A stretch of 64,000 bases of DNA from Sipunculus nudus. Taxonomy: Eukaryota; Annelida; Sipuncula; Golfingiida; Sipunculidae. The position numbers and the translations under genes are program-made. The notes beneath the pieces were generated by a model that did no database searches, was not told the origin of the DNA, and worked only from the letters and a program-made list of their open reading frames with translations. The stretch spans positions 20,644,176 through 20,708,175 of the forward strand of contig CM049311.1 in NCBI GenBank assembly GCA_026874595.1, in the 5' to 3' direction. Positions 1,835 through 51,583 of this stretch are shown in pieces (position 1 is the stretch's first letter; each line of letters opens with the position of its first letter).

Positions 1835-4800
1835 TTAGTCCATGAATTTTCTGTTGGGGTTGTGTCCAAACAAGCATTCACGAAGTTCTGGCATCATCTG
1901 AAATGATAAATACACATCAGCAATCAGTCAAATTGTCGTTTCTGTCTTTTGGTGAAGAAAAAAAGATTAAATTGTTTCAAGACTAAGCCCAGCAAAGACG
2001 AGAAATAATTTCCTCATAATGGAAACGAACAGCATTAAAACTTAATCCTGTGTCCTTGACCTTTCAGCATGATGTTCAAGTTTAGAGTGAATTTACTCCG
2101 TCAATATTTTGGTTATATTTCCAAACAGCATAATACACAATAATATAGATTCACATAAAATAATGGATTTAAAATCAATTAGTTAGACATTTTTTTTTCA
2201 TTTTTCAATCATAAAATTTGACTTTACATCCAATTCCTACTTCTAGTATTTATATCAAAAGAAATCACAGTTTGCGACCACATGCACATTGTATAAGTGC
2301 ATGCCATAGAGTGCAAACATTCCAGCACTATTACACTGCCATTTAGCTGCAGATATGGGAATTACTTGTTTACTACATTGTTTTCTAACTGCTTCATGAA
2401 CATACCTGGTGACTGATCATGTCAAGGCGGCTCTCCAGCGTGTTTGTGACCAGGAACTTGGAACCCTGGGATACCAGCTCCACACCACCAGCACTGAAAC
2501 ACACAAACAAAACAATAACTAGAAATGAGTTTCAGTATTTGCTTATTAATACGTCACAAGGCCATTTATAGATCAAGGATGGTGATGACTGAATGTTCCA
2601 CACTTTTATCTGAACAGGCGGGAGAACCCTCAAAGAGACCAGAATATTACTTTTGTCACAAGTAGTGGTGTGCCAATTAATCAATTATATCAATGATTGG
2701 ATGTTTTCTTTCATAACTAATTGAATCGATTTCATTTTTTCATAACTGATCATGTATGCACATCCAAAAAATGTTATTCTGATAAAACATTTTTACTCTG
2801 TCAGATATAAGGAGGATGGGCACAAAACAGGGCACAGCATTATAATTAACCTTGAGCAACAAATACGTATCAACAACCCAGTGATTACCTTGACCTTGCT
2901 TGCATTATGTACAGTCAAGACTGATTTTACTAGGCCAATATTTTAGATATAATTATATACAGCATATTTAATGGGAATACAGATGGTGCATAAAATAACT
3001 GATTAATAATTTATCATTTTCTATCTTTCAATCATCAAATATGATTTTCCAACCAATTACTACCACTAGTCACAAGGTTAGCTAAGTTCAGCACCTTGGA
3101 ATGTTTTTAATGCTGTAGGAGAGCTACATTATTTAATAATTAATGTAATGAAATGTAAAATGGTGACAGGTTGCACTAACTACTGCCTTGTTTTTTTCCC
3201 CTTGTACTAGTCACTGTGCTAGTCAAACACTGGATGCTGACAGGCCTTATAAAACACAACACAACCCCCCCCCCCCCCCCCCAGCCCTGGCCAATCAGCA
3301 TCCAGCACAAAAGTGACATATCATTCTTCCAGCTGTCAGATCAGACCTGGAAGGCTTGTCCTGGCTAAATGCTAAAATCCCAGTCACGCCAATTGAAAAT
3401 TTTACCATGCTAAAATCCCAGTCCCGCCAATTGAAAATTTTACCATGCTAAAATCACAGTCCCGCCAACTGAAAATTTTACTTCAGAATTATGAAATGTA
3501 ACCTGCTTTACCTTCTCACAGGGATATTATGCTTGTCCTTTCACAAAATATCCAATAATAACTAGAGTTTGCATGACAGTGATGCTTATATTGCCGTTCA
3601 TCTGTTAAAGGGGCCCATTCACCTACCTGACAGTTATAAACTAAAGGTGATCACTTGGAGCTTTTATATAAACAGGCCAGAAAATGTGGATATCACCACA
3701 CACAGGCTGCTTGTTTTGTTATATCAACATGTTTATAATATGTGGGGGCCTGCCAAAATAATCAAAACAAATTAAACAATGGCATCTGGCAGAAAGTCAG
3801 ATAAGCCAGAGCTTTGCACATGGCCTTTTGCAACAAGTGACCTTTCCACCTCCGCATATATGCAACCTACCACCTTAGGTTACATGTTTTTCCTGTTTGT
3901 CAACAAAACTGTGTTTACAAACATGTTGTTGATAAACAAGTTCATACATGTTTCAGCAAAAATTACCCTAAGATCATTAATATATACACAGAGGAAGCCA
4001 GAAATCACAATTTTTTCTTTCAAAAGGTAAGTGAATGGGTACCTTTAAATGCACACAAATTTGATGGTAAATACATTACCTGTCTGGAGGGAGGTAGTTG
4101 TTTGTATCTATTGCTAACTTGACAGACTTTTTGGAAGCCGCTTGGTACGTAGCTGCAGCCTTGTCAAGGATATCCTGAAGAGTATATACATGTCAAGGAT
4201 ATCCTGAAGAGTATATACATGTCAAGGATATCCTGAAGAGTATATACAGAGATACATCTATTTCAAACAATATTTTCAGGGGAAGAATACCTGTATATGT
4301 CACCATTGTTACTGAAACATATACATTTGTGTTCACTGATATCTTTTAAACATGTTTATTATTTTACAATAATTTATTCATCAACCTTACTTAGTAGTAT
4401 TGCAATATATTCTTCTTATACTAGGCATTGTAATCAAATTTTTTAAATGTTGTATAAATAGAATAAACCTAGAAATAAGTAACAAATCATTCTGACGTAT
4501 ATTCCCAGAGGATAAAAGTCCTCCCCACCAACATCAGTCCTAATTATAGAGAGGAAAGACAGGACTTCCTTCAAATAAAATGCTCAGTATATATATATAC
4601 ATATGTGTGAATGTGTGTGTTTTTTGCTAAACTCCATTTGATAAGAAATTAAGAAATGTTACCTTAACCAGTTGAACATCATTCTCTCTGCAGCGGATGA
4701 GAACATTCTCTTCAAGTAGTTGGAACAGGCCCTGTGATAAATAATATATTAAAATATTCATACATTACATACATATATATGTTTCATGATCCAGACCATA

Positions 4801-13800: not shown

Positions 13801-13968
13801 GGTCCCACCCCCTCCCACTCCAATAGCACATGCATATCATTTGGGCATGTCCACATATAAATTAAAATGCTTTATAACTGTAGAATATGAGCAGAAAATA
13901 CTTGTCTTACATAATAATTGTGAATTCATATTTACCTGTTTTTGAACTTCTGGGTCGCTGAGCGCCAT
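1835..13968 (-). CDS. ATP6V1E1: V-type proton ATPase subunit E (complete, 9 coding exons)
   Basis: Subunit E of the cytosolic V1 sector. With subunit G it forms the peripheral stator stalks that hold the catalytic A3B3 head still while the rotor turns, for acidification of lysosomes, endosomes and secretory vesicles. Coding exons in transcript order: 13936-13968, 10418-10483, 9574-9683, 8506-8572, 8023-8112, 4663-4731, 4080-4174, 2406-2493, 1835-1897. All introns are GT-AG and phases join, giving 226 aa, the usual family length. The protein starts [18 protein letters not shown], has the long charged N-terminal helix (about residues 5-100) that pairs with subunit G, then the globular C-terminal part with [11 protein letters not shown], and ends [20 protein letters not shown]. 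Every section aligns with animal ATP6V1E. Introns are repeat-rich; the 3.3 kb intron between exons 5 and 6 and the 3.5 kb first intron hold tandem and dispersed repeats. It is head-to-head with the BCL2L13-like gene. Confidence 0.97.
3265..3282. repeat. Poly-C homopolymer (18 C)
   Basis: Uninterrupted C run inside an intron of the V-ATPase E gene; one of several long C/G homopolymers in the window. Confidence 0.95.
3371..3481. repeat. 38-bp tandem repeat, 3 units
   Basis: Units begin at 3371, 3409 and 3447, each with the core AAAATCCCAGTCCCGCCAAT followed by TGAAAATTTTACCAT. They differ by one or a few substitutions; the last is truncated at ..TTTTAC. The array is intronic in the V-ATPase E gene. 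Confidence 0.95.
3889..4049 (+). repeat. Dispersed repeat, copy 1 (partner at about 62948-63133)
   Basis: About 160 bp matching 62948-63133 in the same orientation. Shared blocks include TGTGTTTACAAACATGTTGT, AGATCATTAATATATACACA and a final GGNACCTTTAA. The second copy carries a ~20 bp insertion. The two lie about 59 kb apart, so this is an interspersed family rather than a local duplication. Class unknown; no terminal inverted repeat or tRNA boxes were seen. Confidence 0.85.
4163..4248 (-). repeat. 29-bp minisatellite that triplicates the 3' splice site of V-ATPase E exon 7
   Basis: Three head-to-tail units start at 4163, 4192 and 4221. On the minus strand each contains a pyrimidine-containing tract, ATACTCTTCAG and the exon-7 start GATATCCTTGAC. 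The exon-proximal acceptor (AG complement ending at 4175) keeps the reading frame. The two upstream copies add 29 or 58 nt, neither divisible by 3, and both shifted frames reach a stop within exon 7. Confidence 0.95.
5090..6305. repeat. ~142-bp tandem array with TGACCTTTGACC-type motifs, about 7 units
   Basis: The landmark GTGACCTTGACCTTTGACC recurs, with variants, near 5240, 5378, 5520, 5665, 5801, 5947 and 6092, a spacing of 136-146 bp. Between the landmarks each unit holds TGGCAGGT-like and GATGAAAAGTTTGGCTTAAA-like segments. The array begins near GACCCATGGGTC (5088) and ends near GGACAGACAAACAGAC (about 6240), ends also seen around related repeats elsewhere in the window. It is intronic in the V-ATPase E gene. 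Several short ORFs that cross it are by-products. Confidence 0.92.
6395..6730 (+). repeat. Dispersed repeat, copy 1 (partner at 32340-32660)
   Basis: It shares with 32340-32660, same orientation, an AGATGGCACCACCA / AGGTGGCGCTACCA block, AAGAATCATG, GAATATAGGTCGCAGTGACC-like sequence, CCTAATTTCAGGTTTCCAAG and a CTAGGTCCAGCGGTTAC-like end before a GGACGG-rich stretch. Intronic. Confidence 0.88.
6960..7210 (-). repeat. Dispersed repeat with GGTGGCGCCACC palindrome (inverted partner at 19870-20070)
   Basis: The reverse complement aligns with 19870-20070. Shared blocks are GGCCTATTTAAAATGAGGTC-like, TTAGGAGAG, CCTTGACCTTGAATA, AAATATCTCA, and the palindrome GGTGGCGCCACC (6981-6992 here). One copy is in the V-ATPase E gene and the other in the last intron of the BCL2L13-like gene. 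Confidence 0.88.
11765..12200. repeat. ~145-bp tandem repeat, 3 degenerate units
   Basis: Units start near 11770, 11915 and 12050. Each contains a TCTGACC...AAGGTCA segment, TTTGAAACTC..CCAGATTT-like sequence, AGGAACAATCAGTGT, TTTGGGAGGAAAATATG and a TTCAAAAGTTATCGC-like end. The array lies in the first intron of the V-ATPase E gene and is followed by a poly-G run at 12222-12238. Confidence 0.88.
12222..12238. repeat. Poly-G homopolymer (17 G)
   Basis: Uninterrupted G run preceded by five C; intronic. Confidence 0.95.
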
Positions 13969-14520
13969 GGTGATGGTTTAGTTGGACAATTTAAACTCCC
14001 TATTTACAACTCTGATGATCTTGGGTCCAGACGGGTAATATGGCTTCGTGTGACAGCGGGTCATGTGATGTGGTAGGGAATTCCCTCCAATGGGGGTCCC
14101 CCGAATACAATAAAATTTATGTAAACACTATATTTAAGGGTAGTATCATGCGTTCATTATAAATTTTAAAGAGATACACGGCAGGTCCTAAGAATTGTTA
14201 TAAAAGTAAAATTCAAAATATTTAACTTTCGTTCGCACGGGATTTCCAGGGAGCCTCGTTTACACTCAGGTCTTTCCTCAATGGGGAATCCCGTGAAAAC
14301 ACGGTAACAAACAAGTGCGGTGTTCAATCATCCTATTGATCGTCAGGTGAGTTAGCGACGGTGTTTTTTCTTTGATCACGTGTAATAGGATTTCCTGCAT
14401 ATATTATGTAAAAGAGTAAACTTCTACATACAGCAAAAACAGCCTGACAGTAGATAATCAGAGAGTGTCCGAATTTGAAAATCTGCCCGCGTTCCTGGAG
14501 CCGGAGCCAGGCGTCTTGGT
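13969..14520. promoter_or_regulatory. Bidirectional promoter between V-ATPase E (-) and BCL2L13-like (+)
   Basis: The V-ATPase E start codon is at 13968. The first good plus-strand donor, TCTTGGT|GTGAGTG, is at 14520/14521 and probably ends the 5' non-coding exon of the BCL2L13-like gene, which must join the acceptor at 16080-16081. The interval is less AT-rich than its surroundings and has more CpG. E-boxes are at 14377-14382 (CACGTG within GATCACGTGTAA) and 14062-14067 (CATGTG within GGTCATGTGATG). No clear TATA box was seen. Transcription start sites are not determinable here. Confidence 0.7.
14377..14382. promoter_or_regulatory. CACGTG E-box (CLEAR/M-box-like, TFEB/MITF candidate)
   Basis: The palindromic core is in the context GATCACGTGT. 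V-ATPase genes in vertebrates carry TFEB-bound CLEAR elements (consensus GTCACGTGAC); this site matches the TCACGTG core only. Placement in the shared promoter is the main support. A six-base match alone could be chance. Confidence 0.4.
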
Positions 14521-15850
14521 GTGAGTGAACTTGTGCTGTGATGTTTGACTTGTACTAACATCGTGTTTCAGGCACCATATGAGGTAGGGATGGGGTTCTT
14601 AATAACAGGGTTTACTTTAATTTATGTGTCGTGCAAAATCGCTATGATAACGGATGTTAGTTTGGTCACTTTTTGCAGGTTTCCTTGGCGGGATCTTTTG
14701 GGAACTTTACGGTAATTCCACTGACGTAATTCGTCAGGTAAACAACAATGACAGCTGATGTCAGAGCTGTCTGACTCAAGTGGTACATACCTTAACATAC
14801 ACAGCTTGCTTTGTCATTGCTATCATTTTGAAAAGGAACACACTGTGTTACAAACAGATGCTGGGCATCTTCTGTATTTTACAGCATACTTTATTGGATA
14901 AGAAGAAAGGTCTGTTAAACAGTGGCATATCATTATCAATTATTATTTAATGAATATCAAAGTTATATTTAATCATATTTTGAACAGCCACATAAAACAA
15001 CAGCATCGCATTTCTTGGAATTGTTGCATTTATAATTGAATCAAACATCATACTTGTATTAACACAGGCATTGCCATCCACTTATTTAATTCCACTCTTG
15101 GTGGTGATCCTGACAATAATTGTGGGGAACATGGGTAAAAATTTGTCACATTCAAATCAGGGCAGATGTTAAGAATCCATATATGGGTATATATATGAAT
15201 TATAATACAAAGCCCATTCATCGTTATGATTGGTTCAGCAGCATGAACCAATGAAATCACCCCTTTGCTGTAAATTATTTAATTTAAATTAAATATCAAG
15301 GTACAACTTTATGAAGCCCCTATTTAGTTATGATGAATGATCTAGCTGTTTATCCTGTACATTTAGACTACAAGAAGGTTTCATATATTTAAGCAATGCA
15401 AAGCTTCATATTGAATAGGATGACATCATCAGTCTCTTGATTTCTGATCACTGTGAGCAGGAGACATAAGTGAGTGGTACACATCTTCTTAGACCAGGAT
15501 GATATCATCATTATATCTTGAGTTTATGGTTGGTGGTCATGCATTGAACAATGAATTGCTCTGCCATGCGTGGGATGGAGCAATCAGAGCCTTTTCAGAC
15601 AGTCTTCAAATTTCTCAGTGAGAATGTTAATCCAGATCTGTGTCACAATGCTGGGGCAGATTTAGAAGGAGCACAAAGGGCATGCACTCACCTTTTTTAG
15701 AACTAAAAATATTTTAAAAAAATAGACCAAAATTAATGCTTAATACCCAAAAAGAGTCTCACCCTTTTTTCCTTCTTACTTCTGGAGGCAATAGTAATAA
15801 AGCCAGCAGCATTCCCAGAACACTAGCATACCTGAGCCAGGGTGTTGGCT

Positions 15851-16096: not shown

Positions 16097-19000
16097 ATGC
16101 CAGTGGAAGAGATGGCATCAGGTGCTATGCAAGATGAGGATACTTCCGATGAATTTATGTATGAAACGAGGAATGTTGTGCTTAACTACCTGGGACTGAT
16201 CCCCGTTGACCATGATCTTACATCCTCATCTTCCTCATCAGGAAAATCTCGTCATTCAGGTGCGTCTGCCGGCCACAGCCATGGCTCGTCATTGTGTAGC
16301 AAAGTAATCGAAGAAGTTCCGGGATATGAACTTGAAGATGAAGGTGAACACAGCATGAGGGACCTGGACACTGATGGTCACAGTCATGACATCCACGAAC
16401 TGGATGAACCTGAGCTTGTTGAAATAGAAATTAGCGCACATCTGGATGATCATAACTATACCGATGGGTTGCACAAACGTGTTGATGGTGTCAACAGTAC
16501 TGCTAAGCTGCCTAAGCCAAGCAGCCCAGCAAGGCCTACTTCGTTATCTTTATCCCCTGGGCCTGCATTGTCATTCCAGTTTCATTATAATGCTGCGGAA
16601 AACCACAATACTCCAAGCGGAGATGGTCCAGAAATAAAGCAGGAACAGAATAGTCTGAAAACTGACTCAAAATTAACTGATGAATCTGGTATCGAAACTG
16701 AAAAGTCCCAGGCTATAGCAACATCTAGTACGTTTGATTCTGGTGTTGGGGAGGAGCCGTTATCGACAGATACAGATAAGATTGCCAATAGAATGGTCAG
16801 TATGGAGTCTATAGCATCATCACAGTTTGACCTGCAGTCCCCAATAAGTGACGGTTCATCTTTGTCGTACAGCGGGTCAGGAATGGTAGATGTTCGTAGT
16901 CTGGACTGGGATACTGTGTCTCAGTATTCACAAGGGTCAAGCGGTTTAAGGAACTCAACAGAACAGCCAATTCTGGAGATTGCTGCACCGTTAAAGGAAG
17001 AGCTTGACAAGGAGTTCACAAAAACAGAACAAAAGTATAGAAGAGGTACTGGTTTATGATTCTCATATGTTCCCATATAATTAGGTCTGTGACAATACAT
17101 TGCCTCATGATACAATACATGTTGTGTTAATTAGCTAAAAAAATGATACTTCTAGGTTTATTATAGGTGGGAATCTGGGAAGTACAGATGAGAATTAAAA
17201 ATATGTTATTGTGATGTAGATTGCCTCCAAAATTCTGTTGATTGTTCTTTGAGTATTACCCTAGCATTCCACAGATGTTCATTACAAATTTAAATTTGTT
17301 TATAACTTTTTGCATAAAATTGATAACAGACAAATCAAAATTACTAAGGGAAGTAATAATACCTTCCTATGAAATTCCTTTCAGAATTTTAATAAAGACA
17401 GATAAATGATTATGATCTTGCCATCTGTGATTTAGGGCTGAAAGATCATACAAGTGGTATTATAACTGTACTTTGTTTCTATAAATAATAGTGAAAATCT
17501 TTTATTTTTCAGTAAGCAGACAGTCCAGTAAAATATCTAGGACCAGTGAGAGAGGGGAGACGCATGCCTTGAGCCCGGAGAGCGAGGTAGCTCGTAGACT
17601 TAATCTGATCAGCGAGATGGTTATGCAGCAGTATGGCCACCGCTTTTCATTTGATCAAGCAGTAGCGCACTTGTTAGATGTTCCACAGGACCAGATGACA
17701 TACCAACTCGTGCGGGAAACACTGCAGCACTATCACCTGTTGGACGGTGATTTACAAGGCTGGCCAATGGTTAGTGTTGCCCCTCTCTATCTGACAGTGG
17801 ATCAAATTACACTTTATCCCTACAATTATTTAATTTTATTCTATGGTTATATTCATCAGTAAATATAAACATATTTGTTCACAGATATATTTTAAACGTT
17901 GATGGACCAGTTGACAATTTAATCTTGTCCTGTTATTGGTACCAGAGAATGATGAACTACTGGATGGCCATTAGTCAGATGTTTTTCTTTAATTCTGGTA
18001 GCAGAAATTCCATGGTGTCTTCAGGTTTGTAAATAATAGTTCAAATTATCAGCTTTTTTAAATTGGAGTTGTTCTGGTAAAAGCTATATAAAAGTTACAG
18101 TTTCTATACATGTCAAAAATATGCTCTGGTCATGTAAAATAAACGGATCTACCAGATTCTACCTACTTGAGTTTGGTATTACATTTTAAAGTTGAGTTGA
18201 AAGAATGTTTTTCTTCTCAACATTTAGTGAATGCTATCTACAGATAATTATATTTCTAATCACCTTGTTTTCAGTGTCAAAAGAAGCGTTTAGATCATCA
18301 CACCATGTCTTCTTGATAGGTGAATGTAATACCTATTTATTAAGCAATCTTAAGTCTGCCTTTGTAGTTTATTTATTTATTTATTTTTTTGCATCTTTTA
18401 TAGCAGTGTCTTTTTCTTCAGGTGGCCATTCTTCTAAGATTTTCACAAAAGCTGACATTCAGCTTACTTGCTCGAGGACAACGAGGAATAGGACGGCTGG
18501 TAGACCACACAACAAAACTGATCTTTGACACAACTGCTGATTATATATTACAGCAAGGAGGATGGGTGGGTAGAGCATTAAATGTCCTGAAATGAAAAAA
18601 TTTTTTAATATTTTGGTGGAGGAAACCGCCTCCCTTTCTTAATGTTTTTTTTTTAACTAAGTGTACATCTGCAGAATTCCATTCCAGTTTAGGACTGTGG
18701 CAGGGGCTTACACGTGATTTTCCTGGCATCAACCAGGTACCACTGAGGGACCTGGGTGTGTGTCATCCCAATCGCTGGGTCATAACACTGAGGAACCTTC
18801 GAAAGGCGCACTTATTTGTGAGTGAAACATGGCTGTTGGGCAAAGTCTCCCCATTAAGTCTTACAAAACGCTCACCAAGAGGGTGGCTGACTGTGGAAAA
18901 TCTTCCCACTTTGGCTGAGTCTGTAACTCACAATATCCCTGTTTAAAGACCAGAAATTACTTATTCAAAGAATAATACTCAAACCTTTCCCATGAGCATT

Positions 19001-20864
19001 TGCATTAGTGTTGGGAGTTGCTTCCTTGATTGAAATTGATCATTGACATCTTATCAGCAACTGTTGATCTATTTGTAGTCACTTTTGAGAAGTGTTAGGA
19101 ATCAATAGTTATTTCAAGATCAGTCAACAGAGAAATTGGTTGACCTCCAGAGTATGAAATTTCTGATCAAATATAGACCTGTTGACCCAATTGATATATA
19201 GGCCTAATATTGGCTAATATATCTTATAACTCTATAGCCTCCATGTGTATATTATAAACATAGGTGTGAATCTGTTAATACATTCTTATTGTTCTAAAGT
19301 TTATTTGCATAAATTTTATGAAGCATACTATCCACAATTATAAAGACTAACCTTTGTGGAAAAACTCTAATCAATTATGGCAATACAAGATCTGTCATCT
19401 GCATCAGTCAACTGATCATCGATTATAATCAGCCATCAGTCCCAGCACTGATGTGCATTGTACATATAGTTTGTCTGCTGTGTAAGGGTCCAGTTAGTCC
19501 ACATCGCTGTGCTTTGTTAATTGAAACATGATACATGCCAGAAACATTGTCTTGTACTTCACAACATAATGATTTTATAAGAAATGTATCATAATTGTAT
19601 GATAAATACAATCAGATAAATTGATTCATATGTCACTAATGTGATTGGAAGTTCTTTGATGCTTTCTTTTTTTCTTTTACAACCCTAAAAAAATTAAAAT
19701 TAATCATATTCAGATACATTGTGAAAGCCCTCCTAGTGGCCTAACACGTTATTGTAACCCCAGACAAAGTCGGAATACTATGGTAAAGGCATGGTTGCGC
19801 TGCCGCTGCGGCAGAGATTTCTTTCAGGCATGATAACTAAAAAATATTTTACAGATCTTTACCAAACTTGAAATGTGCATAGATTTGGGTGAGAGCCTGA
19901 GAGGACGAGGCCTATTTAAAATGAGGTCATGACGTTTATTAGGAGAGAGACCTTGACCTTGAATATTGCCATATATGGTGAAAATCACACCAAATCATAA
20001 ATATCTCATTCAGGGATGCATGGATTGGTCCAAAAATCAAATGACCAAAGGTGGCGCCACCTGTCTTTTTCTTGTTTTCATGCCTTTAAATACCCCATCA
20101 TTGCCACTTGACAGTACTGTGTGTATTTTGATTATAAGTCAAAAACAAATGGACAGATTGGGCTGAAATTGTGCATGTCCATTGATCATGGATACCTCCA
20201 TCTTGGATTCAAGACTGGTGGGGCCATCTGCAATTGTTTTTGTACATGGCTTCCATCCATACGTTTGCTTTAGGTGAAAATTATTCATATCTCAGGAGTG
20301 CTTCAATGTATTGGTCTGAAATTTGGCATGTACATGTTTTGGAGTGTTTTCCTGATAAAGCATACAGGTGGTGCCACCTACTTTACTGTTTTTCATAGTA
20401 TAAATTAATGCCCTTTCCAAAGGAACGATTTGCTGTATTGGCCTGAAATTGTGCACTTATCATTTTGCACCAACTAGATAATCATTGTTAATAATTGATA
20501 TTCGGCCCATCACTAGTTAATGATTAAGTATTGTATATTCTGAATAAAAATATCGTGTAATTGTTTTCAGGATTCAGTGTTCGATGTAGATTTAGCTCAC
20601 AATATGGCAGGATGTTCAGAACACAGTGAGACACAGGATGGGAAGGAGGACAAAGATCAGACTGATGCTGTGAAATGCACAGATGCGAACGAGGTCAAGC
20701 GGGTGGTCGAATTTATCCGACAGAAGAGTAATAATCTCCGAGAAGACATGGAACGAGATCGCTTCAAAAAGCAGCTGCAAAAATACACCATGTTGGGGAT
20801 AGGTGTGGCTCTGCTAGGCGTGGCAGCCGGGTTAATGTACAGGTACAGCAGAGTTACAAGATGA
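16097..20864 (+). CDS. BCL2L13: BCL2L13 (Bcl-rambo)-like, tail-anchored Bcl-2 family protein (complete, 4 coding exons)
   Basis: BCL2L13 is a mitochondrial outer-membrane Bcl-2 protein with apoptotic and mitophagy-receptor roles in mammals. Coding exons are 16097-17045, 17513-17769, 18422-18565 and 20571-20864. Phases match across GT-AG introns, giving 547 aa. The start is the first ATG after an in-frame TAA at 16085; the exon begins at acceptor 16080-16081. Landmarks: N-terminal YETRNVVLNYLGLI (residues 22-35, close to the human BCL2L13 N-terminus); an acidic Ser-rich stretch (about 36-300); LKEELDKEF; BH3-like ARRLNLISEMV (343-353); MTYQLVRETLQ; BH2-like ADYILQQGGWDSVF (441-454); charged linker; and a hydrophobic anchor 523-540 followed by YSRVTR. 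The core aligns colinearly with human BCL2L13. The disordered region sits before the helical core, whereas in the human protein it sits after BH2. A 5' non-coding exon ends at about 14520. Confidence 0.93.
16907..16918 (+). other. Candidate LC3-interacting motif W271-D-T-V274 in the BCL2L13-like protein
   Basis: The codons encode LDWDTV, which fits the extended LIR pattern (acidic residue before W, then x-x-hydrophobic) in a Ser/Asp-rich, probably disordered region. Human BCL2L13 has a known W-x-x-I LIR, but in the linker after BH2. Function here is inferred. Confidence 0.45.
19870..20070 (+). repeat. Dispersed repeat with GGTGGCGCCACC palindrome (partner of 6960-7210)
   Basis: Inverted relative to 6960-7210; shared blocks are described there. 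The palindrome is at 20051-20062. Further variants of the same palindrome (CAGGTGGTGCCACC near 20366) occur downstream in this intron, so the repeat block probably continues to about 20400. Confidence 0.85.

Positions 20865-29205: not shown

Positions 29206-29208
<3 letters not shown>

Positions 29209-29254
<46 letters not shown>
29209..29254. repeat. (TA)n microsatellite
   Basis: Nearly pure TA dinucleotides, with one TTT interruption. Confidence 0.95.
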
Positions 29255-29390
29255 ACTATTATGATAGTTATATGGTGTGTCATATAGTTATCTTATAGAA
29301 ATATGATAAACTTATTATGTTATATCATAATTATTTTGCCTTCTTCACTTGAACATGAAAAGGATAGGCCAATAATTAAAAACCAAAACA

Positions 29391-30635: not shown

Positions 30636-30769
30636 GTAGTGGGAGTGGTCCAGAGATCATGCATAGGCGTTATGCCTAACACAAACGTTAATCATGGATA
30701 TCCCCTGTTACCAATGCAAAACATTTATTCGTCTTCTATATCATTCGTTTTGGGAGCAGTTTTATTAAC

Positions 30770-31363: not shown

Positions 31364-31409
<46 letters not shown>

Positions 31410-38665: not shown

Positions 38666-38669
<4 letters not shown>

Positions 38670-38742: not shown

Positions 38743-38746
<4 letters not shown>

Positions 38747-40033: not shown

Positions 40034-43000
40034 TCAGTCAATGTCATCGACAGAGTCAAAATCTGGATCTGTCGTGCTGTCGAAATCTTCCATCATGGAC
40101 TCCTACAAAACCAAAATTAAAATAAATTATAAGATATTAGCCAAAAGCCCTGACATTCTTTAAAGATATCTTTTTTTTTTGCTCACTGCACCCTTTTGTC
40201 AGAGATCCTTTACTTATCATTACAAACCTCTTCCAGTTGGGAATTGTTCGGATGGCTGGGACTACTTGTCTTAACTATCAAATTTTAAAATAAAAATAAA
40301 AATTCGTTACATTTTAAGGAAACACCATCTGTTTACATTTCACATACACATGCTTACAAAATATTACTCATTCAATGCAGTCCATGCCACAAAACACCCA
40401 TGTTTGTATAATTTGTAAATTCCTATCAAACATATTTGAAGGGACTACTTTACCCTCTACACTACATTATACTTAAGCCGCTGGTGTATTTATAACCCCA
40501 AATACATTGTGGGCATAAAATTTGTATACCTACCATCTTGAAAGAGCAGAGTCATACTCTTGCGAGTCTGATTTTGGAAAGTTCAGTCTGTTGGTGGCAG
40601 AGTCTATAGAATGCAGACGAAGGTCATCATATGATAAAGATGTATCATTATCTCAGATATTTGTTTTTGGCATTATTCTTCTTATTATTGTTAATCTGTT
40701 CCTTTTTTCATCTGATTTGATACTCACTCAGGATCTACCTTATGATGGTCAAATAAATTTGACCCAGTTTCAGTGACCTTGACCTATTTTTTAAGGTCAC
40801 AGGGTCAAAAGTGGCTTCTGGATATTAGGTTTTTAAATACATGAGGCTAGGAATTATCCAGAAGTATGAGTTGTCATTATTATTAATAATTCTCAGATTC
40901 TACAGTACAGCCCTTACCCAGCCTCCTTTGCTGATAATCCAGTTTGCAAACTTATCCTCAAAGAAACGAAGGGCCATTTCCTTGACCTGAACAGCCAGGG
41001 CTCCTCCAGCCCCAGCCAGGGTGACCGCTGAGCGAGCTGCCGTGAAGAAGAAGGCCAACTGGTGAAGGCTCGGCTCGTCCTTCATGTGTCTGTTCACCAC
41101 CCGACTGAACTCATCATAGGTGGCGCCAAGGGCAAGGTTTGTCACTGCTGGCTTGGCTTCAGGGTACTGAACAAAATTTCAAATAAATCTTGGATACTGT
41201 TTGACTGAAGTATTGTGATGATCTATTTAACAGAATTTTAATTTAGGCACTAACCAACATAGAATGTAATAAACAAAAGGATATTATTCTTATGCTACAT
41301 TTCCATATCACAACTGCATAATAAGTATATCAATGTTATTTGTATAAAAAGAAGCATCTTGCTTCTTTTTTAATTAGGTCAATTTATTTAACATTTAATA
41401 TACAATGTATAGGAAGAGTGATCAGAGAAGGCATAAGAATCAACTGTAAAATCAAATAAACACTAGATGTGTCGGAACGACACGAATGCCTCCGCCTGGG
41501 GAAAATTAGAAAACTTTGTTAAATTTTGTAAAATTTTTTAAGTTGAGGAGGCAAAAGTAGGTCAACAAGGGAAAAATGCAAACTCGATCTGTAACTGGTC
41601 ATTATCTGTCCACACACAAAAAATCAGGCCAGTATCTGCAGGCACTGCGAAAAAAAGTCCGTACATGTGTATTTGTCATGAAAATTCTAAGTTTAGGAGC
41701 CGTAAAACGGTCAAAAATAGGTCAACTCGGACGAACCTCAAACTCGGTCTGTAACTGGTCATTATCTGCCCACACACCAAAAATCAGGCCAATATCGGCA
41801 GGCATTGCGAAAAAAAGTCCGTACATGTGTATTTGTCATGAAAATTTCTATTTGTCATGAAATATTCTATGTTTAGGAGCTGTAAAACAGTCAAAAGTAG
41901 GTCAACTGGGACGAAACGCGAACTCCATCTGTAACTGGTCAATATCTGCCCACACACCAATATATTTGCAGGCATTGTGAAAAAAAGTCCTTACATGTGT
42001 ATTCATCATGAAAATTTCTATTTTTCATGAAAATTCTAAGTTTAGGAGCTGTAAAAAGGTCAAAAGTAGGTCAACTGGGACGAAACTCAAACTCGGTCTG
42101 TAACTGGTCATTATCTGCCCACACACCAAAAATCAGGCAAATATCGGCAGGCATTGTGAAAAAAAGTCTGTACATGTGTATTTGTCATGAAAATTTCTAT
42201 TTCTCATGAAATATTCTATGTTTAGGAGCTGTAAAACAGTCAACAAAAGTAGGTCAACTGGGACGAAACGCGAACTCCATCTGTAACTGGTCAATATCTG
42301 CCCACACACCAGAATATCTGCAGGCATTGCGAAAAAAAGTCCTTACATGTGTATTCATCATGAAAATTTCTATTTTTCACGAAATTTTCTAAGTTAAGGA
42401 GCCGTTAAACGGTCAAAAGTTGGTCAACTGGGACAAAACGCTAACTTGATCTGTAATTGGTCATTATCTGCCAACATACCAAAAATTAGGCCAATATCTG
42501 CAGGCATTGCGAAAAAAAGGTCCGTACATGAGTATTTGTCATGAAACTCCTGGAAAGATTCTTAAAACTTTTGGTTGGGAATATAATTAGAAGTGTAGCT
42601 ATAAATACAGAAATTACTGTACTTTATATATCTACCTTGTGTACTATTGTGTCACCTTTCAGTCTCAGGCACTCTGCTAACTCCTTTTCCAAGGCATCCA
42701 CACTATCTTTAGCAACTGAAAAATAAACATACTGGGAATGTCAATCCAATGAATATCTCCTGAAATTAAATCCATAATATGTTCCTCGAAGATAAGTTAC
42801 TCTTTGGCAGAAACCTTCTAAGAAAGATATAATATGATTTCAGGAGATACATAAATCTCCATGCTCTTGCATGAAACATTTTCTATCTGATTGACGAGAT
42901 ATTGAGCATAAAGGGTTTATAAAATTAAAACAAGCAGTTTTTTTTCATGCAGTTTAATGTTTTAGCAGTAATTACATAAAGTTCTCTTTGAATTATGAGC

Positions 43001-46000
43001 TCTGGCTATTACTGATGGTGTCATTTTTAAACTAAAAATTCTGAAGTTTACCTGCCATCGTAGTGATCCTAGGTTTAAATACTGTTAAATTTGTGAAGTA
43101 GTACAGCATATGTTAAGTAAATACTCCTAGTAGTCTGATACTCCTTGTTATATTCAGCTCATCTGAAGTATCTGAAGTATCTGATATGTAGTAAGTTGGT
43201 AACAGTTATTTAATCAGCCTTGCTTATTTGATTCATTATAATCATGCACTACACATAAACAAATTATACATCCACGTCAGATGTAAACACATAACCAGAA
43301 CTGGGTGTGACACGTCTACATCAACCACCATAGCACCAAAATAACCCAACCACCATGACGTAACAACCTACATTTACTTCACAAAATTATCTTTTCTCCA
43401 ATGTGTGAAATATCTGTTATATCCATATTTTTTTATTATTAGTATTATAACTATTATTTCTTTATTCATTCTATGTTTTTTATACCATTCAGATCTCCTA
43501 CTTATTTTTAAGTAATTCAGCAAGTGTGGTTTTAAAGCCTGCTTAACCAAACTTATACAAACTGTGGAACTAAAACTGCTCTTTGATAGGCTTTAATCTT
43601 CCTGGGTGAGATGGGAATTGCAATCTTGTCTAGGCAAATTTAACATCTACCAAGATAGTCACTGAGGCAAGATCACAATTGTAATATCATCAAGGCTAAA
43701 CCAAAAGAATCCTGGATATCACTCTAAAATGTAACATTGTAATTTCACTAATGCATTTTACTATTCCAATTATTATGCAATCAAAAGCAATCACTGGAAG
43801 ATCCCCCTAATATTAAAGAAGAATTTAACTCATCAACCCCCTACAAGTCTCATCTCCATACAGGAAAAGGCTTTTGAAATATTCATAATAGTCATTAACC
43901 CTACAACCAGTACAATAGGTGAGTAGTAAGTGCTGTGTACCTCTTGGACTGGGCGACCTTCTCTGTACCGGTGGTTCTAGTGGTTTTGTCTTATCTACCG
44001 GGCTGCCAGCAGTGATATTGTAGTTCTCTGCGATAGCGTTCAGTTTATCAGCGATCACACTATACAGCTTCTCTTTCTCCGCTTCCGACCTCTGCTGGAA
44101 CGGCTTCCTAGCAATCTCTGTCACAGAGCTGTCTGATATCACAATGGTAGGGGCAAGACCATCTGAAATGCACAACTGTTATACTCACACACAAATTTTG
44201 CCCACATAAAATCTGTTTGTCAGTCATGAATTCCCAAAATTAAACTTGTCTGAGTTGTCGAAAATGTCTGAGTCTTCACTCACTTAATTAAATTTCTCAC
44301 AAACAATGTTTGAGTCCTCATTTGCTAAATCCAACTTCTGCAAAATTATGTTCTAAATTTTCAATCATGAAAATTCATACTCAGCTAAAAAATGTCTGAG
44401 TCTTCAATATACAAATAAAAATAAGGCAAATAATGTCTGAGTTTTCAATCACATAATTTAACTTCTCTCAAATTATCCTTGACTCCCTACAACAGAACAG
44501 AGAAAATACCTTGATGATACCTAAATTTTCTAAGCATGGTCACTTTACTTGATTAAAATGACAGTTTCATCTGTTTAAACCAACAAATTTCAATCAGACT
44601 GACAACTCCTGCTTGCCTCTACGTGGTGTTAGCTGTATGAAAAACATGTGTGTTAGATTGTAGACCCCCTAACTGCAGTTTAGAAACTCTGATTTAAACT
44701 AGCCAACCCTTTAAATAAGTATGTTTACTCTATCCGAAGACCAAACATGGGCAAAACAAAAGATTATGTTATGACTCAGCATACTGGTGAATTTCACTGC
44801 ATGTTGCTGAATTTTGACCAAACATGCTTTGTGCAGAGGAAATAATGGTAGTCATAACAGAGACAAGATTTGTCCAGGATTTTTAATTCATATTATCTTT
44901 TCCTTTAAAAAATCTTCACTCTTAACCTAATATTAAGACTACTGGCTGTGTGATATTGGTGCAAAAAAATAGGAAGGATGGCCATTGCTCAGCAGTTTTC
45001 CACATGACTGGTGTAGGCCTTATCAATCCACATTAAATGCCTCCTGAGTCATACAATCATTTATGAATGCACCCCCCCCCCCCTTGTATCACCTGATAAT
45101 GAGCTGTAGTGGTCAGCCAGGCTGATTACATCTGATGTTATTAGAAAGGAATGTAGCTGTGTTATAGATTTAGCTTATTTCATTATAAGAATGAAAGTTG
45201 TTACAGTACCTGTCATATCACCATCAGAATCCACAGTGGTCAGCTCAACTCTCTCCTCTTCCACTGTGCTGTTCACTTTAAAATGTCCACCCGGCGTTTT
45301 ACTGTACTTATCAGTCCTATCTGTTATGTAATCCAACCGGTACGGCTTATCTGTGGCGGGCAGGTCAGGTCGATGAAGCACCACTCCGTCAAGCCGAAAC
45401 TTTCCTTTCTTATCTTGTATAGACAAACCAGTTGTTCGACCAGCTATAACATTTTTATTGGACAGTATTTGTGATGCTCGAGTTAGTGTTTTTTCTATCT
45501 CTTGTTTCTGCCATTTTGAGCTTGTGTGAACTCCAGGTGGCGCTGCTGGTCTGATATGCTGAGCTGTCACCTTTGTGGTCGACCTGCGAGGAAGGCTGCA
45601 ATAAATGGTTTGCTGGGCGGCATCAGGTTTAGGGATTGCCTGGGAGTGATGGACGCCATGTGTCTGGATGCTGTCGGCAGATTTGGATCGCACCGGCATA
45701 TCTAAATGAAAAATAATGACTTGCATGACACTTAATTTTATTTATATATTTCATTTAATGCACAGCAAAATACAACCTATTAAACTCAAATAAGTGGTAT
45801 TAGCAAATCTGGTGATCATTTCAAAGAGATTTATTAAAATTTACAGTGATACCTGTATTGCTCATCAATGCCATCTAGTGTCCATATCTAAAATGATTCT
45901 CTATTTTTTTGTTTCATGTAAACATCAATCTGGTGCTTGAAATATATCAAATTTTATGGAAATCAGACTTCTGGACTTTAAAGAGTTTTCACAGAATTTA

Positions 46001-49000
46001 AAAGTTTTATAGGTATATGAACCCTGACAGGAATAATTAACCATCAATTACCTTTTTTCTTCTTCTTGTGAGAAGAGTTCCTTCTGAGCAGCCTTCTGAT
46101 GGTTTCCAGTAACGTCTTGTCATCCTTGAGTTTGCGGGTACTGGGGTGACTCTCCTTCAGAGTAACGTTTATATCAATATGTCTGTCAGGGGAGCCCTCC
46201 CTGTGAATGTCCGTCGTCTGATGCGTTCTCTCGATATGAAGCACCGTTCCACAGCCGTCGGCACATATCGGCCTGTTATACTGGTCCACATGAGTGTGGG
46301 TGTGTGTGTGTATTTCACAAAATCCTTCCTTACTTTTATCTGACGACTTACTCCCATTGGATCGAGAGTGATCACTCTCTGGTTTGACAAAATTTCCATT
46401 TTCTTGACTTTTGTATTTTCTCTTGAATTTTTTCTTGTGTTTCCGTGGTAACGATGAGTAATCTGGATCAGAATCTACTGATTTTGATCTGCTGTGTGAA
46501 CGTCTGAAACTTTCCCGGAATCGCTCTTTGGCTTTCTTAAAGAAACTCTTTTTCTTTTTGTAATGGCTGTCATCAGAATCACTTGATTCTGAAGAATTAT
46601 CTGCAACATGTCCACTTTTCTTTTTCCTCGGCAATGTTCCAGCTGTACTGGTGCCAGTACTAGATAACGGCTGGCTCCGCATGCCCTGCTTATCCTCTGA
46701 TTCTGGACTGGATTTATCCAGAATTTCGCATTGATAATTAACCTTAAATCCACCGGCATCATTATGCAAGAAAGCTGGCAACTGTCCAGCTTTTTTCCTT
46801 GGCAACGTGCCAGCATTGCTGGTGCCAGTGCTAGATGGAGCGTAACTGCGATATTCTTCGACTTTTTCTTCAACCTCAGGACTAGATGTGACCAAGTTAA
46901 CGATGTCTCCCTCAGAGATGGTTTTAAAGCCACCACTCTGAACATAATTAACTAGGTACTGATCCTTGTCCTGATCTGGGAGACTACTGTCTATGTTGTC
47001 TTCTGATATGACCTCTTCTGTGACCTCTACCTCTGTGATGGCCTGGAATTCTTGCTGAACGGGTGACGCATCATTTGCACTTAGGCTACGCTTTAAGAAT
47101 TGTTCCAACACCCGCCTCGCCTCTTCTGTGATGTCCGCTGGCCCCATCGGCACCGCAGATGCCATAGTGAGACCTAGTAATGCCAGGAACTCAGCTGAAG
47201 TAGACAAAACAATCATTATAAGCACTGGTAGTATAATGTATTTATAACACAATTATAGTATGTTTGGCTTAAGGATGCTTGATGGTTTTTGGGCTAAATA
47301 CAAAAAGTCAGCTTATTTTGACAAAATTATCTGTCAGTGACTGAACCATATACCACGGCAATTATTTAAGAAGGAAACTAACACAATATGATTCTTTGCA
47401 TAGAATTTGAGTGAAATAATTAACTTTTATTTTTCTTTTTTTTTTATTAAGGATAGGTCCATGGCCTGCTGGTGACTCCCTATTAAATGAGGATGAATGT
47501 ATTCATATGATAAAAATGATATGTTATTATTAAGCCTTCTGGATTTCAGGTTTTATATGCACAGGGTTAGGAATAATCCAGAATTCATAACCTGTCATTT
47601 AGACATTAGAGAAAATCTGTGAGTTTCTATAACGAGATTTCACCATTATGCCATTGAGGCACCGGGGGGTTCGAACAAGGGACATACGGCTCATAAGTCC
47701 AACGCTTTAACCACTAGGCCATGTCCTATCCCACGAACATGAGAGAAACCAGTCTATTTTTCTCAAAATATGTTGCCTGAATTGACAAGGTCAATTGCAC
47801 CTTTTAACATCTGTTGACTGGATGATGGCAGTGATTGGTACCATGGATATTATAAAATGATTTATCAACTTATAGTTGTCAAACGCGCAATTGTTTCATG
47901 AAAGCAAATCTAGAAAACTACAACGTATACAATTAATAAATTTGAAACAAGTGTTCACTTATTTATTGCCAGAGAGGTAATTTTGTCCCTTCATAATCCC
48001 ATATTGAAAAGAAATATAATAGCATTTCATGATTATTGCGAAAAAAGGTGGACACCTACTGGTGGAATTGATTCTGACCTGCTGAAAACTTTATCGCTGT
48101 ATAACACTATTTCAGCAGAAATTACTGGGTTTTTTTGGTGATCATAAATTACTGCAAGATGGTAAAGCAGGTCATCAGAAGAGTTCTTGAGACAGAGTAG
48201 ATATTTTTGGGAGACCCCCTTCAAAAATCTTATGCATCTTGAAACTTTACTCTCATATTCAAGAAACTTCCATGTTATAATTTTAATGGTAGTTTTCAGA
48301 TATGGAAACTACATGTACTGTAAATGACGTAATGAGTGCCCTTACCTAATGAGCGCCCCCCTCTCCCTAGATTTTTAAGTGTTCTCTATAAGAAAATGGA
48401 AGAAATGAGCCATATTCACCTAAAAAGCTATGTTAGTACTTATGGTCACCGTTATTTTTCCACCTCGCTTGGTGATTTTAATGGCGTGAAATTATGTCAG
48501 GGTTTCTCAATCTCATAAATATTGGCTAGCAAAAGGAAATTTTCTCTAAATTAGCACCTTAATGTTTCCCTAGAATCCTCCAAAAAGGTCATACCTTAGG
48601 CCAGAACATCACCACATCGTACAATAGAATCAGCCATATTGTATTTACAATTAACACCGTGGCTTTCCGTCTTTTGGGATATAAAAAATATTTGTTGAAA
48701 ATCAATTTTGAGAGCACACGGGGTGCTCATTACATCAAATACAGTACAGCAGTTTTCAAGAGACATTAAAAAAAATTTCCTGGACCAGATCTCACTTGGC
48801 CTAAGCAATTCTTTAAGTTTAAAACATTTAAAACCATACTGAACTTACCCTAAAACCACCTGGTACTAATAAACAGACAATGCTGGCAGGCCTGGTTCCA
48901 GGTAAAACCACTGGCGCTGATTACATAACAACAACATATAACCACAGTGCACCTAAACACTTGATTAGAGTTAACAAATAATCAAAGGCCAAGGTTATCT

Positions 49001-51583
49001 GACACACTCCCATAAGTTTTTATCATTCCCAAATTACAAATTAATGTAGTTTGGGATATCATTTTACATTCCCTAAGATTTGACAATTGAACAGCTTGCC
49101 ATAATTGCTTAATGCTAGTTATATAGAAACTGATACTAGCAGTAATCAAATTAACATTTAAGGTGCATATTTAACATTTAAAAAGAAATATCATCAGTTT
49201 AACTTTAAACTACTTTTAAAAATGGCTAGTTACATGAAACATACCTCACATAATTAAATCATATACTTATACTGACAATTTTAAGACTTGGATCTCATAT
49301 ATTATATTATAAATATGTATTTTCAAAGCTTTTCCTTGATGAATATAAAAACAGGATTTTTGTTAATGTTTAATGTAGTTGAAATAGTTTTTGCAATGTT
49401 TACATCATGAATTGATGTTTAACAATCATTTCACTAATATTCAACAAATAATTGTTCAAAATCAATTTTGAGAGCACACGGGGTGCTCATTACATCAAAT
49501 ACAGTACAGCAGTTTTCAAGAGACATTTAAAAAAATTTCCTGGACCAGATCCCACTTGGCCTAAGTCAAGGCCAGTAATACAGAACTTATGCATGGGATA
49601 AAGACCAGAAATCAGGGATTGATTTGAAATGTTGTGATCATTGGTATACAACAGGGTCAGAGGCAAGGGTGTTAAAAGATTTTACTCAGGTGTGAAGAAA
49701 TAACTAATAGCACTAGTATAGCAGGGCTGTAACAACGCATTGAATAATCGATGCACTGAACTGGGTTGCCAGCAGCTTTTCACAATCATTTCACTAGCTT
49801 TCAGCTGGTATTCTGGGATTAATGAACATGTGAAACTTTGAGATCGGCCTCTGTATGATCTCATTTTATGGCCAACCTGAATCCAACATAAATATTTATG
49901 GTCAGCTTTTTTTATTTGTGCCTTGCTTACAAAGTTCAAAATTTATTATCTTGCATGGATTGTACAACTAGCTATATAACTAATGTTTAAGTTCATTATG
50001 TAATCAGAAGAACATTTTTTGAAGACATACCTATCAGACAGAATATTATGATTACCCAATAATCAAAGTAAGGACTGATTTAAAAAGCACTAACCCATAA
50101 GTAAAATGAATCAAAGACCCCATAACAAATGATAGGTCTAATTAAGAGTTAATAAGTTACTCCGCCTGTCTGAACAGCATTTCTTTCCTTTGACCTATAG
50201 AGAAGCTGCCTGCGAACAGGTTTTTATCAACACAAACAGAATCTAATGACAAAATGAACCACAGGAGATCCAAGGAAATGTTGTTTAATGTGCTGTTTAA
50301 CTTGTTGTTTGGTCTCAGATAGAGCCACTGATAGCAATTCTTTAAGTTTAAAACATTTAAAACCATACTGAACTTACCCTAAAACCACCTGGTACTAATA
50401 AACAGACAATGCTGGCAGGCCTGGTTCCAGGTAAAACCACTGGCGCTGATTACATAACAACAACATATCACCACAGTGTACTTAAACACCTGACTAGAGA
50501 TAACAAATAATCAAAGGCCAAGGTTATCTGACACACTCCCACAAGTTCTAATCATTCCCAAATTACAAATTAATGTAGTTTGGAATATCAAATTATATTC
50601 CCTAAGTTTTGACAATTGAACAGCTTGCCATAATTGCTTAATGCTAGTTATATAGAAACTGATACCAGCAGTAATCAAATTAACATTTAAGGTGCATATT
50701 TAACATTTAAAAAGAAATTTAACTTTTGACTGTTTTTGAAAACTGCTAGTTTACATGAACATACCTCACATAATTTAATCATATACTTATACTGACAATT
50801 TTAAGACTTGGATCCCATATATTATATTATAAATATGTATTTTCAAAGCTTTTCCTTGATGAATATAAAAACAGGATTTTTGTTAATGTTTAATGTAGTT
50901 GAAATTGCTGTTGCAATGTTTACATCATGAATTGTGGTTTCAGTGCAGAAACTGATAAATTCAGCTTATTTAAATGGAGCAAATACATTTGTAGCATGGG
51001 AGCGTATTTCAAACCTAGGTAAAAACGTGATTACCATAATTAAAATTCAAGGCAGATAAACATGTTTTCAACTGTGATTACAGAACTGTGAATGCAAAAT
51101 GGCTATGTGCAAAAGTATTGATGATCTCTCTTAAATTTATTTCTGCACAGTCAATTTCATAATTAAAAATGAAGGTGACTATACATGTTTTAAACTGTGT
51201 TAAAAATATGATTACTGTAATTTAAATTGGAGATGGATAGACATTTTTAAACTGTGTTAAAACATGATTATCATAATTTAATTTGAAGGTGAGTATTCAT
51301 GTTTTAAACTTTGTTAAACATGATAACCATAATTTAAATTGAAGGTGGATAAACATGTTTTAAAATCACTGTAAATGCAAAATTGCTATGTGTAAAAGTA
51401 TTGATGATCTCTCTAAAAATAATTTCTCCACAATTAATTGTGAAGGCCCTGACACTAACACCAAAAGACTGCGGACTACTTACTTGAGCCCCTAGCACCC
51501 TGGTCATCAGTGGGGTTATCGTTCATTTTGCCCTGACTTTGAGCCGTTAGCTGCTCAGGTATTGCTAACTTCCCTGTGTACAT
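40034..51583 (-). CDS. Bcl-2 family protein, BCL2L14 (Bcl-G)-like, with BH3, BH1-like and BH2 (7 coding exons)
   Basis: Coding exons in transcript order: 51484-51583, 46052-47194, 45210-45701, 43941-44162, 42636-42715, 40918-41166, 40034-40102. All GT-AG with matching phases; about 784 aa from the ATG at 51583, the first after an in-frame TGA, or 765 aa from the ATG at 51526. Exon 2 encodes a low-complexity region: two GGFK...GTLPRKK repeats, a Ser/Asp tract, a strongly basic RS-like segment, and HTHTHTH followed by a Cys/His-rich stretch. The exon at 42636-42715 carries BH3-like LAECLRLKGDTIV, very close to the BAX BH3 (L-x-E-C-L-x-x-x-G-D). Exon 40918-41166 gives GATYDEFSRVVNRHM (Bcl-G-like), a BH1-like helix LAFFFTAARSAV and BH2 FEDKFANWIISKGGW. 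The tail is acidic with no membrane anchor. The family is clear; the exact orthologue (BCL2L14, BCL2L12 or BID-related) is not. Confidence 0.87.
40049..40060 (-). other. Candidate F-type LIR motif (FDSV) in the acidic C-terminal tail
   Basis: The last coding exon reads ..TTDPDFDSVDDID. PDFDSV fits the extended LIR pattern with acidic residues on both sides, in a short, probably unstructured tail. Inference only. Confidence 0.35.
40228..40269 (-). other. Candidate 42-nt cassette exon between the last two exons of the BCL2L14-like gene
   Basis: On the minus strand TAGTTAAG|ACAAGTAGT...CTGGAAGAG|GTTTGT reads through in phase 0 at both ends and would insert TSSPSHPNNSQLEE between ..SKGGW and ESMMEDF. 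Both neighbouring junctions are phase 0, so inclusion or skipping keeps the frame. The acceptor tract is poor, so it could be chance. Confidence 0.4.
41540..42545. repeat. Higher-order tandem repeat (six monomers, alternating ~167/184 bp)
   Basis: TAGGTCAACTGGGACGAAAC or a variant recurs near 41557, 41715, 41899, 42066, 42250 and 42419 (spacings 158, 184, 167, 184, 169). Monomers at 41899 and 42250 share ACGCGAACTCCATCTG; those at 41715 and 42066 share CTCAAACTCGGTCTG. So the later array is built of ~351-bp dimers. It nearly fills the intron between the BH3 and BH2 exons. Several 60-94 aa ORFs here are repeat artefacts. Confidence 0.93.
44225..44480. repeat. Degenerate ~60-bp tandem repeat (AATGTCTGAGTCTTCA)
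   Basis: AATGTCTGAGTCTTCA or a close variant occurs near 44261, 44305, 44392 and 44430, each followed by a CTTCTC.CAAA-like segment. Intronic in the BCL2L14-like gene. Confidence 0.75.
46613..46960 (-). repeat. Internal coding repeat: GGFK...STGTSNAGTLPRKK, two copies
   Basis: Within exon 2 of the BCL2L14-like gene the blocks SGGFK..SSTGTSNAGTLPRKK and AGGFKV..SSTGTSTAGTLPRKK are tandem. The GTLPRKK parts are 171 bp (57 codons) apart. A third, diverged GGHFKV occurs in the next exon (about 45270), and further SLPRK/SLPRR motifs follow. Confidence 0.9.
47650..47735 (-). mobile_element. tRNA-derived SINE head (minus strand)
   Basis: The reverse complement has the A-box TGGCCTAGTGG, then about 30 bases and the B-box GTTCGAACCCC. 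The acceptor stem does not pair, so it is not a functional tRNA gene. The SINE body probably runs toward 47455. Located in the large first coding intron of the BCL2L14-like gene. Confidence 0.75.
48318..48744 (+). mobile_element. MITE with TA target duplication (Tc1/mariner or pogo-like)
   Basis: The left end CTGTAAATGACGTAATGAGT then GCCC pairs with the right end, read in reverse complement, CTGTATTTGATGTAATGAGC then ACCC. TA lies at both flanks (48316-48317 and 48745-48746). 427 bp, no credible ORF. The right end is also present alone near 49475-49505, as part of a local duplication. Confidence 0.85.
48691..50940 (+). repeat. Split tandem duplication
   Basis: Block X is at 48691-48805 and again at 49451-49565; block Y is at 48806-49420 and again at 50335-50940. 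In the first copy X and Y abut (CCTAAG|CAATTC). In the second they are separated by 769 bp (49566-50334). The copies are very similar apart from substitutions and a few short indels in Y. Either a 769-bp piece was lost from one copy or gained by the other; no terminal repeats mark it as a transposon. Intronic. Confidence 0.95.
51005..51440. repeat. ~60-bp degenerate tandem repeat (AACATGTTTTAAACTGTGTT)
   Basis: Units with ACATGTTTTAAACTGTGTTA, AACATGATTACCATAATTTA and a GAAGGTGGATA-like end recur about five times. They are bracketed by a longer direct repeat, AAGTATTGATGATCTCTCT, at about 51115 and 51399. It abuts the first coding exon of the BCL2L14-like gene. Confidence 0.85.

Follow-up and report, generated by a model that had tools for sequence, protein, structure and literature searches.

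The window analysed here (the whole stretch of 64,000 nucleotides, G000:C6:20644176-20708175, on a chromosome that makes up 6.2% of a 1.43-Gb assembly of 153 contigs) carries an ATP6V1E gene and a BCL2L13 gene head to head, followed by a third, convergent gene of the Bcl-2 family. The best explanation, held as a whole with about even confidence, is that the window represents an old gene neighbourhood. Within this neighbourhood the third gene may be the positional orthologue of BID, and perhaps also the source of BCL2L14, an assignment that we regard as evenly balanced.

All three genes were modelled from both strands with GT-AG introns that were all in phase, and the coordinates held (Table 1). 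The order and orientation were ATP6V1E (-), BCL2L13 (+) and the third gene (-). This is the same layout as in human 22q11, given the strands that we take ATP6V1E1, BCL2L13 and BID to have there, and the starts of human ATP6V1E1 and BCL2L13 presumably also lie head to head. The gene models bear out the three genes and their layout as the earlier note had described them, and the third gene, convergent with BCL2L13 beside ATP6V1E, lies in the position of BID. One study gives the human order as CECR2, SLC25A18 and ATP6V1E1, with BCL2L13, BID and MICAL3 more distal (PMC7862319).

Table 1. Genes, exons and other features modelled in the window.
Feature	Position	Strand	Description
ATP6V1E (V-ATPase subunit E)	1835..13968	-	9 coding exons, 226 aa
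ATP6V1E exons, first five	13936-13968, 10418-10483, 9574-9683, 8506-8572, 8023-8112	-	
ATP6V1E exons, last four	4663-4731, 4080-4174, 2406-2493, 1835-1897	-	
CpG-rich stretch between ATP6V1E and BCL2L13 start regions	13950..14750	.	CpG observed/expected 0.93 vs 0.38 in the window
BCL2L13 (Bcl-rambo) orthologue	16097..20864	+	4 coding exons, 547 aa
BCL2L13 exons	16097-17045, 17513-17769, 18422-18565, 20571-20864	+	
Third gene, BH3-bearing Bcl-2-family	40583..51583	-	7 coding exons; stop in last exon
Tentative first coding exon	51484-51583	-	Weak; has a GT donor and joins in phase; 4.3 kb upstream of the long exon, with direct duplications in between
Long exon	46052..47194	-	Ser/Lys-rich N-terminal region, probably disordered
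Exon	45210..45701	-	N-terminal region continued
Exon	43941..44162	-	Possible alpha-1 helix KLYSVIADKLNAIAENY
BH3 exon	42636..42715	-	LAECLRLKGDTI
BH1-to-BH2 exon	40918..41166	-	Ends ANWIISKGGW before phase-0 intron
Last coding exon	40583..40603	-	TLPPTD, then stop; no tail anchor

The ATP6V1E protein belonged to the vATP-synt_E family (PF01991), with an E value of 3.1e-67 and 226 bits against a cut-off of 24.2 (215 aa scanned). It was the sole copy found in the assembly, all three matches of the PF01991 genome search being inside the window. Among the 120 matches listed, identity was 66-72% to mollusc proteins (Dreissena 72%, Mactra 71%, Liolophura 71%), 72% and 71% to those of the annelids Lamellibrachia and Paralvinella and 71% to that of the hemichordate Glandiceps, while the top identity (75%) was to a metagenome protein. 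The stretch between the start regions of ATP6V1E and BCL2L13 is a candidate bidirectional promoter that would serve both genes, since its CpG ratio is as high as a shared promoter would show.

The plus-strand gene was firmly identified from its sequence as a BCL2L13 orthologue. Its protein had the N-terminal MYETRNVVLNYLGL, a core ending in YILQQGGW and a C-terminal hydrophobic segment at residues 522-540. Compared with 13 human members, the core scored z 19.4 with human BCL2L13 (next BAK, 9.5), and in a comparison with 12 human members the score was 21.6 (next MCL1, 10.5). Human BCL2L13 in turn matched the window gene best among 10 members of this genome (next 7.2), which makes the two reciprocal best matches. 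The first 60 residues scored z 8.3 against the human sequence, so that both the N-terminal part and the membrane segment of a BCL2L13 protein were present, and the maximum-likelihood tree joined the two genes with a UFBoot of 94. The protein was below the PF00452 cut-off (26.5 bits vs 31.4, E 9.9e-6; human BCL2L13, 50.6 bits), and its N-terminal part had no meaningful match in the PDB (best E 0.21). A coral has BCL2L13 according to PMC4715348, which indicates that the gene predates bilaterians. Between BCL2L13 and the third gene (26200-34500), several 500-base stretches were high in CpG (observed/expected about 1 or above); no gene was recognised in them, and they may be repeats of recent origin or regulatory sequence that is unmethylated.

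The third gene encodes 768 aa if its first exon is right, and 725 aa from Met-44 (47165, read by hand), which is a good alternative start; at either length the protein is long, as had been claimed. Direct duplications 91-96% alike, with a spacing of 0.8 to 1.5 kb, were found at 48683-50940 in the would-be intron 1, and the intron between the BH3 and BH1-BH2 exons contained a tandem-like block (41505-42596, 63-96% repeats). About 600 low-complexity residues precede the Bcl-2 part. A strict BH3 pattern occurred once in the protein (24 of 5000 shuffles had one) and a BH2 ending in GGW was present, whereas NWGR (BH1) and a tail anchor were absent from it. The description 'multi-BH' therefore held for BH3 and BH2 and failed for BH1. 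The phase-0 intron directly after GGW is a family feature that was present in all ten members examined, namely L001-L008 and the two window genes, the ninth PF00452 place being outside this count. Four DxxD sites were found, at 99, 239, 576 and 656; their presence is not evidence of cleavage.

The BH1-BH2 exon matched PF00452 with E 0.0012 and 19.8 bits and the whole protein with E 0.021 and 15.8 bits, both below the Pfam cut-off of 31.4. Human BID (15.6 bits), BCL2L14 (23.6) and BCL2L15 (16.1) were likewise below it, so this shortfall does not exclude atypical family members. The best PDB sequence for a spliced piece of the gene was Bcl-w (E 0.00024). The predicted model of the C-terminal half had a pLDDT of 68 and its best Foldseek match was Bcl-xL (prob 0.98, E 0.2); BID, BAX and BAK were absent among the 50 VIA rows listed, which excludes nothing. 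Exon 6 matched only itself across the genome. Judged by its sequence, the third gene is a divergent Bcl-2-family gene with a C-terminal half resembling Bcl-xL, and a Bcl-2 fold is probable for that half from the sequence and, less firmly, from the model. A chance open frame was ruled out by the PF00452 and Bcl-w matches, the GGW intron and the BH3.

The earlier note had also linked the third gene to BID, which the position supported and the sequence did not. Against human members (BLOSUM62), the third protein scored highest with BAX (z 11.5), Bcl-w (10.2), Bcl-xL (9.7) and BCL2L14 (8.5), compared with -0.2 for BID and 0.3 for BCL2L15. The BID profile PF06393 had no match in the protein at E up to 1 and none in a genome search that recovered no control. 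In the comparison of human with own members, from which the BCL2 row was left out, human BID was best with the BOK-like L002 (z 5.1; 7.0 with BLOSUM45) among ten own members and BCL2L15 with the BAX-like L008 (z 4.6); both were low against every own member, which makes the pairwise scores weak for these two. Human BCL2L14 was best with the MCL1-like L003 (z 13.2) rather than with the third gene, and the two were thus not reciprocal best matches. Among human members, BID was closest to BOK (4.4) and then BCL2L15 (3.9), and BCL2L15 to BCL2A1 (4.3), BCL2L14 (4.2) and BID (3.8). An alpha-1 helix shared by the exon at 43941..44162 and BCL2L14 was rejected, the score (z 0.1) being not above shuffles. 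The human BID and BCL2L15 sequences used were letter-for-letter equal to 2bid and 7ccl. The BH3 and BH2 coordinates of BCL2L14 in PMC10244440 agree with the sequence used here, as do the BH3 letters for BCL2L14, BAX and BCL2L13 in PMC9171138 (position checked for BCL2L14).

Gene linkage was examined with seven families, and that without a match (the ADA2 N-domain, not found in a genome search in which the control was silent) was outside the six that were placed. MICAL was located 7.3 Mb from the trio on the same chromosome, C6, with both FAD and bMERB domains; bMERB domains were found on C2, C3 and C6 and FAD domains on C6, C9 and C10, and C6 alone had both. A TEA gene and both places of Tub were also on C6. 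PEX26 was on C1 and PHTF on C5, while AMPD was on C17 and had one further, weak place on C1. Within 100 kb on each side, SLC25A18, CECR2, MICAL3 and PEX26 were not recognised in codon-scored segments inspected by eye. Three of the six placed families on C6 gave a binomial P of 0.004 under a null that treats families as independent. This value flatters the linkage, because Tub was chosen once TEA was known to be on C6, the FAD domain of MICAL was searched for after the bMERB hit there, and the human relatives of TEA and Tub lie close to each other. The human TEA and Tub genes are taken to lie at 12p13/11p15, among other places, and human BCL2L14 presumably at 12p13, with BCL2L15, PHTF and AMPD at 1p13. 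TEA and Tub on C6 would agree with a single gene as the origin of both BID and BCL2L14. A third heir in BCL2L15 was rejected, as the places of PHTF and AMPD gave it no support. Overall, the linkage helps the BID descent of the third gene a little. The interpretation of the earlier note was therefore partly supported: the trio, order and orientation stood, and of the two 22q11 neighbours that were placed, MICAL was on C6 and PEX26 was not.

The maximum-likelihood tree (21 sequences, poorly supported) was built without L006, L007 and the ninth PF00452 place (C14), and the BAK and BAX of this genome entered it without their BH3 exon. The third gene was placed weakly beside the BCL2L13 pair (UFBoot 52), and approximately unbiased (AU) tests rejected none of 14 topologies, so the tree that had been proposed as a check of the BID link neither refutes nor confirms it. 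The AU values for the third protein were 0.53 with BID, 0.53 with BCL2L14 and 0.51 with BID, BCL2L14 and BCL2L15. A single clan of BID, BCL2L15 and BCL2L14 was not retained (UFBoot only 56 and 44).

Descent from BID's ancestor is favoured by the human 22q11 order and orientation, the firm BCL2L13 orthology and MICAL, TEA and Tub on C6, and by a protein with a BH3, no NWGR, no tail anchor and a stop soon after BH2, like BID, BCL2L14 and BCL2L15. It is weakened by the missing BID sequence signal, by PEX26, PHTF and AMPD being elsewhere and by the failure to find an orthologue in other animals, as well as by the preferences of BCL2L14 for L003 and BID for L002 and the tree position near BCL2L13. 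In the protein database, none of 2129 candidates qualified as a relative of the third gene at E 0.01, nor did any of 155 at E 0.1; as the database does contain molluscs, this blank points either to limited search sensitivity or to a fast-evolving protein.

An ancient ATP6V1E-BCL2L13 pair beside which a lineage-specific inverted tandem copy of BCL2L13 (or another family member that landed there) diverged, with BID arriving there independently, is the alternative that survives best, although we consider it unlikely. It agrees with the tree position and with the AU value for the third protein beside the BCL2L13 pair (0.62), which exceeded those of its other constrained placements. It also agrees with two introns that both window genes have, one of phase 1 ahead of BH3 and one of phase 0 after GGW, and with the failure to find a third-gene orthologue in the protein database. 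Against it, the score between the two window proteins was near noise (z 3.5, from an alignment limited to 13 residues around GGW) and below those of the third protein with the BAK (12.9), BAX (10.1), BOK (8.4), BCL2 (6.5) and MCL1 (6.0) of this genome. In addition, an exclusive pair with the window BCL2L13 scored poorly among the topologies, with an AU value of 0.15 that fell short of rejection, and the same place and orientation would have been reached twice by coincidence. A recent inverted copy was not favoured given the same score.

A somewhat less probable reading is that the third gene is an orthologue of BCL2L14 alone, of BCL2L12 or of a tail-less BAX/BAK-type effector, unrelated to the place of BID. 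The leading human scores (BAX, Bcl-w and Bcl-xL, then BCL2L14), the AU value of 0.48 for the third protein with BAX, the BAK relative on C6 (80.4 Mb) and a long N-terminal extension in common with BCL2L14 would fit such an origin, but high Bcl-w and Bcl-xL scores are expected from slow-evolving members, and BAX-, BAK-, BOK-, BCL2- and MCL1-like genes are already in the genome. These had NWGR or a close form except for the BAX-like exon (TRER). The PF00452 genome search returned nine matches, the two window genes not among them. The BAK-like L005 (G000:C6:80376160-80379381) thus shares C6 with the trio. As to a post-BH3 intron in common with BAX, that of the third gene was located 5 residues after GD, and the likely BH3 exon of the BAX-like gene was ADSFSRTKERQR, with a tentative splice place. 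From the intron before BH3 onwards, the third gene has the phase pattern 1, 0, 0.

Finally, a chance neighbour or degenerating gene of no consequence is very improbable: one genome was read, no relative was found and the N-terminus is of low complexity, but the seven in-phase exons, the GGW intron, the intact BH3 and the lack of an in-frame stop are against it, and it is improbable, by estimate, that a neighbour drawn at random from tens of thousands of genes would belong to the roughly 11 of the Bcl-2 family.

Two further genes on C13, L006 (G000:C13:27275252-27278581) and L007 (27255167-27258496), were neighbours with one long open frame each. Both had an N-terminal CARD (PF00619, E 3.7e-10 and 7.5e-7) and a C-terminal PF00452 domain (E 4.2e-18 and 1.9e-14), all over the cut-offs, and are CARD-Bcl-2 fusions, an unusual link of caspase-recruitment and Bcl-2 modules. 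L021-L028, which lie some 26-93 kb beyond the right end of the window, comprised several peptidase-M20-like copies on both strands, PM20D2-like by eye. The tRNA scan found none.

Under the preferred explanation, the third gene and vertebrate BID (22q11), perhaps with BCL2L14 (Bcl-G, 12p13), would descend from one bilaterian ancestor gene, the vertebrate genes having taken shape after the vertebrate genome duplications; the descent shared with BID is what we infer from the evidence above. The extended form, in which BID and BCL2L14 are shortened 2R duplicates of a single long Bcl-2-fold gene, already convergent to BCL2L13/ATP6V1E in the protostome-vertebrate ancestor, is put forward more tentatively, at a little under even. 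The third protein would be a soluble, tail-less Bcl-2 fold with its own BH3 in the second helix, preceded by a long N-terminal part that is rich in Ser and Lys and probably disordered. From these parts it may be a latent BH3 donor, with the BH3 buried in its own fold. The long N-terminal part would be open to kinases and proteases, and cleavage or modification could free the BH3, as in BID; the freed BH3 might then engage the BCL2-like guardian of the animal (L001) or its effectors of the BAX/BAK type (L008, L005). Cleavage of Bid by caspase-8 is described in PMC4715348.

BID has a Bcl-2 fold, unlike most BH3-only proteins, and the third gene, if the assignment is true, would help to explain this. 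With a gene in the BID position of a protostome, the locus would date from the bilaterian ancestor at the latest; BID and BCL2L14 would not be late inventions, with the full-length ancestral form kept in a protostome, and the link that BID makes from death-receptor to mitochondrial signalling may have a protostome counterpart. In the literature, the first Bid is placed in cartilaginous fishes, with none in lamprey or hagfish (PMC8998228), BH3-only proteins are given as not identified in molluscs or bivalves (PMC5550854, PMC3634015, PMC8917759) and the conservation of BCL-G is called an open question (PMC10244440). Among the matches listed in a full-text search of open-licence PMC papers, no title or abstract concerned the trio in an invertebrate. 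The third gene would be a concrete candidate for invertebrate cell-death tests.

Compared with known members, the third gene resembles BID in its position and orientation beside BCL2L13, a probable Bcl-2 fold with BH3, the lack of NWGR and of a tail anchor, and a stop soon after BH2. BID differs in its length of 195 aa and in its N-terminal alpha-1. In the third protein about 600 residues come first and a GGW is retained, which is absent in BID, and neither BID nor the BID Pfam profile gives a sequence signal with it. BCL2L15 (Bfk; 7ccl) shares BH3, BH2, GGW near the C-terminus and the lack of a tail anchor, but differs in its near-zero score and in that both tested 1p13 families are off C6. 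The third gene is not a close copy of BCL2L13 (Bcl-rambo), as the low score between them showed; the plus-strand gene, in contrast, likewise has the N-terminal YETxxVVLxYLGL, the core, QQGGW and the C-terminal hydrophobic segment of that protein. BCL2L14 (Bcl-G) is like the third protein in its long N-terminal extension, BH3, lack of NWGR, WIxxxGGW end and lack of a tail anchor, with the fourth-highest human score; it differs in that its best partner in the genome is L003 and in that the human gene is on chromosome 12, not 22, as stated in PMC10244440.
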